Source: Myxococcaceae bacterium JPH2 (GTDB lineage Bacteria > Myxococcota > Myxococcia > Myxococcales > Myxococcaceae). Taken from it: a DNA stretch of 64,000 bases. Under the pieces are notes generated by a model that saw nothing but the letters and a program-made list of their open reading frames with translations, was not told where the DNA came from and searched no databases. Position numbers and translations under genes: made by a program. The stretch covers positions 434,001 through 498,000 of the forward strand of contig JAEMGR010000005.1 of NCBI GenBank assembly GCA_016458225.1, in the 5' to 3' direction. Below are positions 12,941 through 18,097 of the stretch, in pieces (position 1 is the stretch's first letter; the number at the start of each line of letters is the position of its first letter).

Positions 12941-13939
12941 TCAAAGAAACCGCCAGCGCCACGTGCGGACATCCGACGGGTCTGGCAGCTCCAGCTCGAA
13001 GGAGAGCATCTCGAAGCGCTCGTACTCGCGCGGGTCCACGCGCAGGAGCGTCATGCCCGTGTGGTTGCGCCCGCGCAGCGGCGACACCGTGAAGGACAGC
13101 TCCGCGTCGAAGGCCACTTTGTAGAAGAGGCACAGGCCATCCACGCGCCCGCTCTCCACCACGGGCCGCTCGTAGCGCACGACGCTGGGCAGGCCGTCCA
13201 CGGCCATGGTCTCCAGGTCGAAGGCGAAGGACGGCTCGGGCTCGCACAGGAGGTGCTCCACCTCGTACGAGCGCACCAGCCGCGTGAAGTACGAGGGGCT
13301 CATCGCCTCGCGCAGCGACTGCAGGCAGCGGTAGTCCACGCTGGGGAAGCGCTGGCTCCAGATGAACGGGATGCAGGCCTCGTCGCGAAGCTGCACCGGC
13401 TCCACGAACACCTCGAAGCGATTGGGCAGGATGCGCCCACCTGGCCGCAGCAGGCGCGAGCGCAGGTCGAGCATCCGCGGCACCATGCCCGCGTCGAACA
13501 GCGCATCCCCCAGCAGCTCGTGCAGGAGCACGTCCGCGCGCTCCTGCGACTGGAAGCGACGGGGCGGCTCGCGCACGAAGTCGATGTGGTCCAGCCCGTT
13601 GCGCCGCGCCACCCACTGCGTGGTGTCCAGGAGCCGCGAGTCATCCACCGCGTACAGCTTGCGCGGGTGGCGCGAGGCGGCCAGGAACGTGCGCAGGCCC
13701 GTGCCCGTGCACACGTCCACCACCACCTGTCCGGTGCGCACGTAGCGCTCGATGGCCAGGCGCCACACCTCCACGCGCTCGGGGTCCGCGAGCATCGAGT
13801 CCTGGGGCGCGGGGCTCGACAGGTTGAAGCTCTCCGGAACGACGTTGCGCCGCTGGAGCTGAGACACCAGGGGCAGGTGGCTCAGCCGCGAGCGAAAATC
13901 CAGCAGTGCCTGGCGTGGCAGATCGAGCAGGTTCGGCAT
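12941..13939 (-). CDS. PRMT-like SAM-dependent methyltransferase
   Basis: A 332-aa protein starting MPNLLDLPRQALLDF. The Rossmann part has motif I VVDVCTGTG (residues 73 to 81), then KLYAVDDS for the ribose-binding acid. What follows resembles the protein arginine methyltransferase fold rather than a generic methyltransferase: ADVLLHELLGDALFDAGM corresponds to the double-E loop, then LLRPGGRILPNRFEVFVEPVQL leads into a beta-barrel-like C-terminal half ending in FTVSPLRGRNHTGMTLL, which aligns with the THW-loop area. Glu141 matches the first glutamate, but the second position is Ala150, so classical arginine methylation is doubtful. PRMT-like proteins are uncommon in bacteria. Substrate unknown. 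It lies between the ABC ATPase and WS/DGAT genes on the same strand. Confidence 0.7.
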   Translation of the reverse strand: MPNLLDLPRQALLDFRSRLSHLPLVSQLQRRNVVPESFNLSSPAPQDSMLADPERVEVWRLAIERYVRTGQVVVDVCTGTGLRTFLAASRHPRKLYAVDDSRLLDTTQWVARRNGLDHIDFVREPPRRFQSQERADVLLHELLGDALFDAGMVPRMLDLRSRLLRPGGRILPNRFEVFVEPVQLRDEACIPFIWSQRFPSVDYRCLQSLREAMSPSYFTRLVRSYEVEHLLCEPEPSFAFDLETMAVDGLPSVVRYERPVVESGRVDGLCLFYKVAFDAELSFTVSPLRGRNHTGMTLLRVDPREYERFEMLSFELELPDPSDVRTWRWRFL

Positions 13940-14096: not shown

Positions 14097-14891
14097 TCAG
14101 TGGGAAGCAGTCGAGTCCGCGGGGGCGTGCCGCGCGCGGCGCTCCAACCAGTCATGCAGGAAGGCGCGCACCGCGGGGTGACGGGACTGGCGGAACACGT
14201 CCGGCGGAGCGTGCTCCACGATGCGGCCTTCGTGCAGCAAGGCCAGGTGGTCCCCCACCTCGAAAGCGGTGGCCACATCCGGCGTGATGACGAGCGAGGT
14301 GGCGTGGAGCTGCTGCTTCGCCATGACCATGACGTCCACCACCGAGCGCGTCTTGAGCGGATCCAACCCCGCGGTGGGGTCGTCGTAGAGCAGCACCGAC
14401 GGCTCCAGCACCATGGCGCGAGCGAACGCCGCGCGCTTGAGCATGCCGCCCGACAGCTCCCCCGGGTACTGGTCCGCCGCGGCCTCCAGGTCCACCATCA
14501 CCAGCGCGCGCCGCACGCGCTCGCGCACCTGACGCTCGGGCAGACGCGCCCGCTCGCGCAGCGGGAAGGCGACGTTGTCGAAGACGGTGAGCGAGTCGAA
14601 CAGCGCCCCGCCCTGGAAGAGGATGCCCAGCTTGCGCCGCACCCGGTCCAGGTCCACCACGCCCAGTCGAGACAGGTCCTCGCCCGCCACGCGCACGGTG
14701 CCCCGGTCCGGCTGGAGCAGCCCGTCGATGAGCTTCATCAACACCGTCTTACCGGAACCGGACACCCCGAGGAGTACACAGGTGGTGCCCTCGGGAACGA
14801 CGAGGCTCACGCCCGCGAGCACCGACTGGTCACCAAACGACTTGTGCACATCCAGGAGCTCGATCGCCGGCCGTCGTCCGGGCTCGCCCAT
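14097..14891 (-). CDS. ABC transporter ATP-binding protein, MlaF/Ttg2A-like
   Basis: A 264-aa ATPase starting MGEPGRRPAIELLDVHKSFG; an in-frame start 12 codons earlier is possible. It has Walker A GVSGSGKT, a Q-loop GILFQGGALFDSLTVFDNV, the signature LSGGMLKRAAFARAM, Walker B VLLYDDPTAGLDP and the switch His region SLVITPDVATA. FQGGALFDSLTVFDNVAFPLRE and the DPTAGLDPL sequence are typical of the MlaF/YrbF group, which drives phospholipid or hydrophobic-compound movement at the cell envelope. In most such proteins the switch residue is His in SxxVTHD; here the Walker-B-following loop reads VITPD, lacking that His. No MlaE permease or MlaD gene is adjacent, so its membrane partner must be encoded elsewhere. 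Confidence 0.85.
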   Translation of the reverse strand: MGEPGRRPAIELLDVHKSFGDQSVLAGVSLVVPEGTTCVLLGVSGSGKTVLMKLIDGLLQPDRGTVRVAGEDLSRLGVVDLDRVRRKLGILFQGGALFDSLTVFDNVAFPLRERARLPERQVRERVRRALVMVDLEAAADQYPGELSGGMLKRAAFARAMVLEPSVLLYDDPTAGLDPLKTRSVVDVMVMAKQQLHATSLVITPDVATAFEVGDHLALLHEGRIVEHAPPDVFRQSRHPAVRAFLHDWLERRARHAPADSTASH

Positions 14892-15016
14892 CGCGCATCC
14901 CCCCGTATGGCCCGGCAGCCTTCGCACGCGCCGGTGCCGGGGGAGCAGTGTGCCGCGCGTCGCGTCCGCGCGGCAGTGGTCCGAGGGGCTCGCTCCGTGT
15001 CAGCCAGACACCATCG

Positions 15017-18000
15017 TCAGCGCGAGCGCACCATCATCCCGAACGCACGCAGGCGATCCCTCGCGCGCAGGAGCTTGGCCATGGGAATGGAGAACACCGC
15101 GCGCACGCGCTCGGGGTCCCCGCACCACGCGCCGCCGTTGAGCACCACGCGCGTGTGCGTGTAGACGATGCGCGGCAGGTTCTCCGGCGTGAGGCGCTCC
15201 CCGTCCACCTCGCGCCCCAGCCACGCCGTCACGCGCGGCGCGAGGAACAGGCCGCCCACCTCGGCGGACTCAGCGAGCCCTGAGTCCGGCAGCACCTCCG
15301 CCAGCAGCGCGCGCTTCTCCGCCAGCTCGCGGCGCATCTTCCCCAGGAAGTCGCGCAGGGCGCGGTGTCGCGCCGCGTACAGGAGCTGTCCCTCGGGGCT
15401 GCGCGCATAGGCCGCGTAGAGGTACGCCGCCGCGCGCGCGGTGGGCAGGTGCAGCGCACCCGGTCCGCTGTCGCGCAGCGCTTGAGCGAGCGCCCGGTCC
15501 CTCGTGGCCAGCCAGCCCACGCGCAGCCCGCCCGCGGCGAACTCCTTGGACAGTCCGCCCAGGATGACCGTGCGCGCGCCCACGCCCGGCACCGCGCCCT
15601 CCAACGTGACGGGGCTGTGCACCGTCTCGGCGGTGGGGTTGGTGAGGTGCACCAGGCCGAAGATTTCGTCGGACACCAGCAGGCACCGCTGCTCCACCAC
15701 GTACGTGGCCAGGGCCACCAGCTCCTGATGCGTCAGGTACGTGCCCGCGGGGTTGGAGGGCTGGGACACCACCACCGCATCGGGAGAACCCGCGCCCCGG
15801 CGCGCGAGCAGCGAGGCGAGCGTCCCCAGCTCCACCTCGCATCCCGCCGCGACAAACGTGGGCGGCAGGACGCCGTAGCAAGGCGTGGCCAGGAACACGC
15901 GGGGCGCGCGACCCAACCGCTGGCGCAGCGCCACACCGAGGTGATGCACGAGCGGCCACACGCCCGGAGCCAGCACCAGCTCATCCGGCGAATAGCGCGC
16001 GCCGCGCGTCTCCAAGAGGAACGACGTGAGCGCCTCGGCCAGGCCCGTCTGCGTGCCCGCGGCGGGCGGAGCGACACTGGCCGCGACGAGCCCCTCCACC
16101 AGCGGCGGCGGCAACGGGCCCTCGTTCTCGCCGTAGTCCAGCCGCACCAGCTCCGGATCCTCCTCGCGGAAGATGCGGGGCAGGAAGGCGGGGAACGTGG
16201 ACAGGTGCGCGATGCGCTTCGAGCGCGGCAGCGGCACCTCGGGCTTCGGGCGCGGCGCGGGCGGCGCGGGCTCGGCGAAGGCGAGGCGGAAGGCGAGCAG
16301 CTCCGCGAAGGTGCGCTCGTAGAACCACTGCGCCAGCGTGCTGATGCGCGAGTACGTCACCTCCGCGGCCACCTCCAGGTCGGCGCGCAGGGGCTCGGGC
16401 ACGGGCAACAGCAGCGTCAGCTCCAGGTCCGGCCACACTGCGTTCTTGATGAGGCCATAGAGGACCACCAGGTTGGGCGCGGGCACCTCGCGGGCGAGGA
16501 ACTCGAACAGCGTGCGCGGCTCCACGCCGCCGGTGATGTTGAAGAAGGCGCTCTCGTCCAGCACCACCCAGATGCCACGCCGCGCGGCCTCCGCGACGAT
16601 GTCGCGCAGCACGGCCAGGTTGGTGCGCTCGCCGGGCTCCACCGTGAGGAACACCGCCTTCACGTCGAACGCGGTCAGCAAACGCTGAATTTCTCCCAGC
16701 GACGTGTGCGTCACCGTGGCGCGCACGCCCGCCTTGTCCAGCGCGCGGGCGTAGAGCGGGTGCAGGCTGCGAGACACGAGCACCTCGTCGCCCGGATCGC
16801 ACATGGACAAGAGGAGCGAGTACACCGCCTGCTCACGCTCGGGCGCGACGAACAGCGCGTCCTCGGCCAGTCGGAGGCCGAAGTAGCGATCCAGGTAGCG
16901 CGACACCAGGCGGCGGAACGGCGCGTCGCCCGCCTCGTGCGCGTACGGCAGCTCCGGCGTTCGCGCCAACCGCCCCGCCAGCGACGCCGCGAACCCGAGC
17001 TGCTCGGCGGACGCCGCCCCCAGGTCCAGCTCCTCCTGGAGCGAGGCGATGTCCAGCTTCCGCAAGGACGCACGCAGCGCCAGCGTCTCGCGAGGAAGGG
17101 CGAGGTTCGCCTCCCAGACGGCCACCTCGTGCCAGATGGGATTGCCCGCCTGCAGCCACCCGAGCGCGGTGGCGGCGCGCAGCGGCTCGGGGCTGTGGGC
17201 CTCCATGAAGAACTCGAACTCGCGTCCGGTGCGCTGCTCCAGCGCCACCAGCGGGCGGATGTCCGTGTCCGCCGCCTGCATCACCCGGCGCGCCACGCTC
17301 ACATGGGTGGCGAAGCCTCGGCGCGTGAACATGCGCTCGATGATGGCGCGGCCCGGCCGGCCCGCGAGGTTCAGCAGCAGCCGGCCACCCGGCGCCAGTC
17401 GCTCCGGCGCCTCGTCCAACAGGCGCGCGATGAGGCCCAGGCCGAAGTGGTCCTCGTAGACGTTCTGGAGCGTGCAGTAATTGGAGAGGTCGTAGAGCGC
17501 CTGCTCATCCGCCTGGGACAGCTCCAGCTCCGCGGGGAGTCCCTCGCCGCGCAGCACCTGCGGGATGCATCCGACGATGAAGTCCCACGAGGGCGTCTCG
17601 GGCAGGCCACGCAACAGGTCGCTCTCGCCAAAGGACAGGCGCGACACGAGCTGCTCATCACCGTTGAGCCACGCGTTGCACAACCCGACCACCGGCGCGT
17701 GCGGGTTGAGGTCCATGCCATGGATGCGAGAGAGCCCGGTGAACTTCGCCAGCGCCAGGCAGATCCACCCCGAGCCCGAGCCCACCTCCACCAGCCGCTT
17801 TCCCGCGTACTCGTCCAGCGGCACCTTCAAGAGCCCTTCGAGGAAGGTGAAGGCCCACGCCTCGGGCGCGAAGATGGAGGGCAACAGGAACAGCTCCAGC
17901 CGCTCCTGCGACGCGCCCACCGCCACCACCACCTGCTCCAGGCGCAGCGGGGCGTTCTCGGGCTTGCCTCGTGCCAGCTCCGCCAGCGCGCGCAGCTCCG

Positions 18001-18097
18001 TCAGGGCCTGGCCGCGCCGCTCGGGTTGGCGCAGGTCCTCGGCGAGGGCTCGCAGCTGTTGGAAGGCTTCGCGGGGGGTCGCGGGATAGGTCGCCAT
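15017..18097 (-). CDS. Plant-type methionine S-methyltransferase (methyltransferase plus two aminotransferase-like domains)
   Basis: A 1026-aa protein. It should methylate L-methionine with SAM to S-methylmethionine. The start MATYPATPREAFQQL follows common codon use, though the Shine-Dalgarno is weak. Residues 60 to 330 are the methyltransferase: motif I VEVGSGSGWICLALA (103 to 117), DLNPHAP, IVGCIPQVLRGEG, then LYDLSNYCTLQNVYEDHFG, RPGRAIIERMF, VMQAADTDIRPLVALE and FEFFMEAH. These blocks match plant MMT as I remember it, including the IVGCIPQ and EDHFGLGLIAR signatures. Residues 380 to 650 are a degenerate aminotransferase-like domain (VVLYGLIKNAVWPDLE). Residues 690 to 1026 form a second type I aminotransferase fold with LDYGENEG, VVSQPSNPAGTYL, VSDEIFGLVH and the PLP-lysine motif LSKEFAAGGLRVGW (Lys851, Arg859). 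Full-length architecture and length equal the plant enzyme, far longer than the bacterial MmtN type. Physiological role here is unknown. Confidence 0.82.
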   Translation of the reverse strand: MATYPATPREAFQQLRALAEDLRQPERRGQALTELRALAELARGKPENAPLRLEQVVVAVGASQERLELFLLPSIFAPEAWAFTFLEGLLKVPLDEYAGKRLVEVGSGSGWICLALAKFTGLSRIHGMDLNPHAPVVGLCNAWLNGDEQLVSRLSFGESDLLRGLPETPSWDFIVGCIPQVLRGEGLPAELELSQADEQALYDLSNYCTLQNVYEDHFGLGLIARLLDEAPERLAPGGRLLLNLAGRPGRAIIERMFTRRGFATHVSVARRVMQAADTDIRPLVALEQRTGREFEFFMEAHSPEPLRAATALGWLQAGNPIWHEVAVWEANLALPRETLALRASLRKLDIASLQEELDLGAASAEQLGFAASLAGRLARTPELPYAHEAGDAPFRRLVSRYLDRYFGLRLAEDALFVAPEREQAVYSLLLSMCDPGDEVLVSRSLHPLYARALDKAGVRATVTHTSLGEIQRLLTAFDVKAVFLTVEPGERTNLAVLRDIVAEAARRGIWVVLDESAFFNITGGVEPRTLFEFLAREVPAPNLVVLYGLIKNAVWPDLELTLLLPVPEPLRADLEVAAEVTYSRISTLAQWFYERTFAELLAFRLAFAEPAPPAPRPKPEVPLPRSKRIAHLSTFPAFLPRIFREEDPELVRLDYGENEGPLPPPLVEGLVAASVAPPAAGTQTGLAEALTSFLLETRGARYSPDELVLAPGVWPLVHHLGVALRQRLGRAPRVFLATPCYGVLPPTFVAAGCEVELGTLASLLARRGAGSPDAVVVSQPSNPAGTYLTHQELVALATYVVEQRCLLVSDEIFGLVHLTNPTAETVHSPVTLEGAVPGVGARTVILGGLSKEFAAGGLRVGWLATRDRALAQALRDSGPGALHLPTARAAAYLYAAYARSPEGQLLYAARHRALRDFLGKMRRELAEKRALLAEVLPDSGLAESAEVGGLFLAPRVTAWLGREVDGERLTPENLPRIVYTHTRVVLNGGAWCGDPERVRAVFSIPMAKLLRARDRLRAFGMMVRSR

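Follow-up and report, generated by a model that had tools for sequence, protein, structure and literature searches.

A plant-like MMT from a myxobacterium with two aminotransferase-like domains and a proposed composite PLP site

Class I/II aminotransferases are generally homodimers with two active sites. In dimeric aminotransferases, Tyr70 (AspAT numbering) of one subunit reaches the PLP phosphate held by the partner subunit, and the segment at about AspAT 296-297 is another that is lent across the interface to the partner's active site. In the glycine decarboxylase P-protein and in serine palmitoyltransferase pairs, a catalytic fold-type I domain is joined by a lysine-less partner of the same fold to form a composite site; these proteins belong to other families, carry out other reactions and are not known to have a fused methyltransferase. 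MmtN of Roseovarius indicus (PDB 7vvv), a protein of 305 residues, contains a methyltransferase domain homologous to that of the protein studied here but no aminotransferase domains. Bacterial plant-like MMTs with an aminotransferase domain are already known, and bacterial Group III MMTs are reported to show no link with DMSP, NRPS or Met-cycling genes, with DMSP made by one of four tested strains (PMC9135737).

We analyzed a window of 64,000 nucleotides (the whole stretch of DNA under study) from Myxococcaceae bacterium JPH2, which encodes a protein with the traits of Group III MMTs, namely an MmtN-homologous methyltransferase, a GxGxG motif and a C-terminal aminotransferase domain. Plant MMT, also of Group III (PMC9135737), has the same three-part layout. 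We consider it probable that the window protein is a three-part Group III MMT whose two aminotransferase-like domains form an intrachain pseudo-dimer around one composite PLP site. No statement on PLP, on the lysine or on a second aminotransferase-like domain in MMT was found in the literature searched, including the available portions of PMC9135737, PMC11464771 and PMC10585787 and, by term search, PMC9309667. Relative to the literature searched, three elements are apparently new: the completeness of the site, the presence of a second aminotransferase-like domain and the reading of the two domains as a pseudo-dimer with one site.

Domain layout and PLP-site residues

The coordinates of the gene, its domains and its key residues are given in Table 1; the list of open reading frames also holds an alternative longer reading of the MMT frame with a TTG start from 18163. 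The methyltransferase domain carries the GxGxG motif as EVGSGSGW at residues 104-111 and CIPQ at 177-180, and it matched MmtN 7vvv with an E-value of 5e-27 when searched as a 12-row profile (profile 76-340) and of 3.3e-10 as a single sequence. In the alignment of the two domains no Glu stands opposite the Met-binding Glu127 of MmtN, so that even methionine is a presumed methyl acceptor.

Table 1. Positions in the window of the MMT gene, its domains and selected residues
Feature	Position	Strand	Details or basis
MMT gene, 1026 aa	15017..18097	(-)	ATG 18095-18097, stop 15017-15019
SAM-dependent methyltransferase domain, residues 1-335	17093..18097	(-)	related to MmtN (PDB 7vvv)
Middle domain, residues 336-620, candidate active-site partner (large domain of a fold-type I aminotransferase, degenerate)	16238..17092	(-)	profile and predicted fold
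Complete fold-type I aminotransferase domain, residues 621-1026	15020..16237	(-)	Pfam, PDB profile, predicted fold
Tyr385, middle domain, AspAT Tyr70 equivalent	16943..16945	(-)	aligned to 1j32 and 1bjw
Lys551 (GLIKN), middle domain, opposite the catalytic Lys	16445..16447	(-)	kept in 9/19 bacterial lineages
Ser583-Arg584 (TYSR motif), about AspAT 296-297	16346..16351	(-)	by-eye alignment to 1j32 TSN
Tyr741, near AspAT Trp140 position (ring stacking)	15875..15877	(-)	mapped by motif
Asn782, Asn194 equivalent	15752..15754	(-)	PDB alignments
Asp810, Asp222 equivalent (PLP ring nitrogen)	15668..15670	(-)	PDB alignments
Lys851, AspAT Lys258 equivalent (Schiff-base lysine)	15545..15547	(-)	PDB alignments; codon read
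Arg859, AspAT Arg266 equivalent (PLP phosphate)	15521..15523	(-)	PDB alignments
Arg999, Arg386 equivalent (substrate alpha-carboxylate)	15101..15103	(-)	PDB alignments

The C-terminal domain resembles PLP enzymes far more closely than chance would allow. It is matched by Pfam Aminotran_1_2 (PF00155) with an E-value of 7.1e-26, and a 20-row profile of the domain gives full-length alignments to Pyrococcus and Rhizobium aminotransferases in the PDB (E-values 8e-42 to 1.1e-41). An AlphaFold2 model of the domain (mean pLDDT 88.8, pTM 0.86) found its best fold match in 6f77, with a Z-score of 40.8 over 370 residues and an rmsd of 2.3. The first-pass annotation had recognized a type I aminotransferase domain here; these searches bear out its identity, but they place its start at about residue 621 (nucleotide 16237) rather than at 16030. 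The motifs lie where that annotation had put them: in the 1026-residue minus-strand translation, PSNPAG occupies residues 780-785 and SDEIF residues 809-813, and Lys851 and Arg859 both fall within GGLSKEFAAGGLRVGW. The aminotransferase signature, which had been called full, is so with respect to its Lys, Asp, Asn and Arg ligands, but the classical Tyr225 is replaced by Phe813, a near-invariant Phe in the bacterial rows.

This fold and these PLP ligands are common to class I/II aminotransferases (1dju/1gd9, 6f77, 1j32) and ACC synthase (1m4n, 3piu), from which the window protein differs in having one intact and one degenerate domain per chain, and Phe in place of Tyr225. ACC synthase (3piu, Z-score 37.7; 1m4n, E-value 8.1e-33) is not favored as a specific relative, being no closer than general aminotransferases by fold or by profile. 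The conserved motifs are numbered as in AspAT (Lys258, Arg266, Asp222, Asn194, Arg386). G656, G712 and Y741 were assigned to first-shell positions by motif in the PDB profile alignment, and the list of AspAT first-shell residues was taken from PMC3823064.

Conservation across bacterial lineages

Loci were initially scanned with the pattern [SA]KEFAAGG and one other pattern. Because the lysine motif lies inside that pattern, we rejected the lysine count from these loci as evidence and instead searched whole genomes with the methyltransferase-domain profile alone, which introduces no lysine bias. Matches were obtained in 60 of 195 Myxococcota genomes, in 7 of 368 from the phylum of G197 (a Bdellovibrionota genome), in 7 of 46 from the phylum of G199, in 1 of 396 from the phylum of G201 (Longispora) and in 2 of 282 from the phylum of G196. 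Of the resulting 77 genomes, only G581 lacks the C-terminal domain, and an alignment of the fetched genes revealed that Lys851 is kept in all of the other 76. Since the 60 Myxococcota include many closely related genomes, the weight of this count rests on the divergent lineages, in which identity to the window's C-terminal domain drops to 19-37%. Eight divergent genomes (G553, G545, G325, G326, G582, G610, G611 and G1190) keep Lys851 and are absent from the loci of the lysine-pattern scan. The count by genomes is preferred to that from a 107-row alignment, which holds several genes twice.

We defined near-invariant columns as those at least 90% identical across 19 divergent bacterial lineages, with the decayed L057 left out. 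There are 43 such columns in the methyltransferase domain, six in the middle domain (Y385, G390, R395, P419, S583 and R584) and 25 in the C-terminal domain, and the last include all 11 mapped first-shell positions (G656, G712, Y741, N782, D810, F813, G848, S850, K851, R859 and R999). That the PLP site of the bacterial domain is still complete is thus well supported, both by the retention of Lys851 in genomes found without lysine bias and by the near-invariance of the mapped first-shell ligands.

Two copies have lost several of these residues and still keep Lys851 and Arg859. L057:5998-8919, the same gene as L012, carries N782D, Y385C and R999H, has lost GxGxG and CIPQ, and retains 22 of the 43 methyltransferase, four of the six middle-domain and 18 of the 25 C-terminal near-invariant residues; from its sequence it looks like a decaying or repurposed MMT copy. 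L061 carries N782D and F813L, and its SR is changed to GS.

Several relatives are unusual in other ways. In relatives from the phylum of G199, the MMT core is embedded in much longer proteins (L062:2667-7403, L063:3442-8172, L066:3299-8686, L117, L118 and L119), with sizes in that phylum of 1577-1800 aa, 1359 aa and 2449 aa, the last being L119, which extends beyond the core; no Pfam match was found in the N-terminal extensions of L062 and L066. The G581 protein (L120), from the same phylum, has 905 aa, a methyltransferase part that looks degenerate and no aminotransferase domain. The record that holds L044 bears the title Comamonas sp. KCTC 72670, but its MMT is 81% identical to the myxobacterial one, and the record looks like a mislabelled Myxococcus genome. 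L067, found by the lysine-pattern scan, was rejected as an MMT, its genome having no methyltransferase match. A search of a viral collection found no MMT relatives in viral contigs.

The middle domain as a candidate active-site partner

Residues 336-620 form a second aminotransferase-like domain that was absent from the first-pass annotation. Compared with the C-terminal domain by hhalign, it gave a probability of 98.3 in global and 97.5 in local mode, and its 18-row profile matched PDB aminotransferases with a best E-value of 3.2e-8. Modelled alone (pLDDT 85.0), it is matched by aminotransferase large domains with a Z-score of 21.7 over 228 residues. Of 20 bacterial rows, 19 have Tyr385 and 19 have Arg584, and the placement of Ser583-Arg584 agrees with the end points of the structural match; the alignments by which these cross-interface positions were chosen were read after their conservation had been seen. 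The equivalents of Arg266 and Asn194 are absent from the middle domain (hhalign and alignment), and neither the bacterial alignment nor the PDB profile alignment reveals a conserved Tyr at the position in the C-terminal domain that corresponds to Tyr70. This complementary degeneration is what a single composite site predicts. The PLP site had been thought to be confined to the last 330 residues; the conservation pattern instead indicates that part of it is supplied by the middle domain.

We infer from sequence that residues 336-620 contact residues 621-1026, the degenerate and the complete domain pairing within one chain around one site that would bind PLP and be catalytic. To this site the C-terminal domain would contribute Lys851 for the Schiff base, Asp810, Asn782, Arg859, Tyr741, Ser850, and Arg999 for the alpha-carboxylate, and the middle domain would contribute Tyr385 and Ser583-Arg584, reaching across. 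Lys551 fits less readily: it is present in Bdellovibrionota and presumably in the plant protein, and a dead middle site gives no explanation for it.

The best sequence and fold neighbors of the PLP half are general aspartate, prephenate and aromatic aminotransferases, as would be expected if it were an ordinary enzyme of this kind, with a substrate amino acid that has nothing to do with SMM, and fused by chance. We find this doubtful, because the fusion is strict. Strong middle-domain matches came from the same 60 Myxococcota and seven Bdellovibrionota genomes that have MMT (G553 being counted although its match appears as two pieces), and other matches were no better than 8.7e-12; among 193 Myxococcota and 368 Bdellovibrionota genomes there was no middle domain, alone or in a tandem aminotransferase, without the methyltransferase. 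Nor did a curated NCBIfam model fit the domain among the matches listed, the best of which, CobD TIGR01140, scored 72.7 bits against a curated cut-off of 290.55.

It is unlikely, and more so than an ordinary aminotransferase, that the C-terminal domain is a regulatory sensor, binding PLP, alone or carrying an amino acid, and tuning methyl transfer to Met or SMM levels without turnover. Such a role would suit a fusion inseparable from the methyltransferase, a domain that apparently persists in plants without the lysine and the finding that no NCBIfam model reaches its cut-off among the matches listed (25 of 52 families). However, Lys851, Ser850 and Arg999 are conserved along with the cross-domain Tyr and Arg, a pattern that resembles constraint by catalysis. 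That the two aminotransferase-like domains are structural remnants in bacteria as well, as they apparently are in plants, is highly improbable, for although the middle domain is plainly degenerate and L057 and L061 show erosion, Lys851 survives in every one of the 76 genomes despite 19-37% domain identity in divergent rows, and every mapped first-shell ligand is near-invariant.

Plant MMT, proposed function and genomic context

For comparison with plants we used a presumed, provisional sequence of Arabidopsis MMT; plant MMT was not found among the PDB matches of the profile and single-sequence searches, nor in searches of prokaryote and viral collections. The presumed plant protein aligns over its whole length with the bacterial rows. 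Compared with the Bdellovibrionota protein L060, it is 53% identical in the methyltransferase, 33% in the middle and 28% in the C-terminal domain, and its methyltransferase domain is 36% identical to that of the window protein. It presumably has no lysine, with SLNLLSGAIKLG replacing SKEFAAGGLRVG, and the plant string given in the first-pass annotation likewise has none; loss of the lysine in plants, which agrees with just these two presumed sequences, seems to have occurred.

The differences from the bacterial proteins are concentrated in the aminotransferase-like part. The presumed plant MMT keeps 39 of the 43 methyltransferase near-invariant residues, but two of six in the middle and 14 of 25 in the C-terminal domain (39/43 versus 16/31; Fisher exact p = 2.8e-4, a descriptive value, as columns are not independent). 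Its changes include K851L, R859K, N782S, Y741N, G656D, Y385F, S583G and R584H, Arg395 being changed as well, and it keeps D810, F813, S850, G712 and R999. By comparison, bacterial controls left out in turn (L060, L065, L113, L114 and L115) kept 23-25 of 25-26 C-terminal and six of 6-7 middle-domain residues, and the control L061 keeps 21 of 25 and four of six, respectively.

In an IQ-TREE phylogeny the presumed plant MMT falls inside a clade of Bdellovibrionota rows with support of 100/100, L115 lying outside the group of the plant and four other Bdellovibrionota rows (95/91); as many rows have an uneven sequence composition, the precise branching order should be taken loosely. This nesting suggests, on sequence grounds, that Bdellovibrionota may have been the source of the plant gene. 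Since all Bdellovibrionota rows in the clade keep the lysine, its absence from plants would be a derived loss. Land plants would then have retained the scaffold with the PLP site apparently dismantled, leaving the methyltransferase alone, and the large C-terminal part that the plant enzyme still carries would be explained as the shell of a lost activity.

Under the preferred reading of the two domains as an in-chain pseudo-dimer, the MmtN-like methyltransferase would make S-methylmethionine (SMM) from methionine and SAM. We guess that the PLP site would act on SMM (or methionine) by transamination or elimination, so that the protein makes and then uses SMM; SMM as the substrate is possible, at well below even odds. 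Stand-alone homocysteine S-methyltransferase would be the usual plant-style partner for recycling SMM. Among 20 MMT-bearing genomes, only one (G197, 359 aa) has a PF02574 match in a frame of stand-alone length, 16 have it in longer frames only and three lack it; in the window's own genome the match (G000:C34:70784-71659) is MetH, and there is no stand-alone homocysteine S-methyltransferase. The recycling partner is thus mostly missing, and a PLP site built into the MMT protein would be a natural destination for SMM, its substrate being a guess.

More tentatively, the bacterial MMTs may be self-contained two-step enzymes in which the composite PLP site uses SMM, either by transamination and decarboxylation towards DMSP or by an elimination that releases dimethyl sulfide. 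Land plants may have acquired the gene from a donor resembling Bdellovibrionota; taking the PLP site apart would then have let SMM become a stable transport and storage form. We regard this combined scenario as possible rather than likely.

Pfam searches of the Longispora locus and of the window found no gene neighbors tied to sulfur metabolism. In the window, an ABC-transporter ATPase (14097-14897, minus strand) lies directly downstream of MMT, and two genes downstream, at 12941-13939 on the same strand, is a protein arginine methyltransferase-like gene with a weak PRMT_C match below the cut-off.
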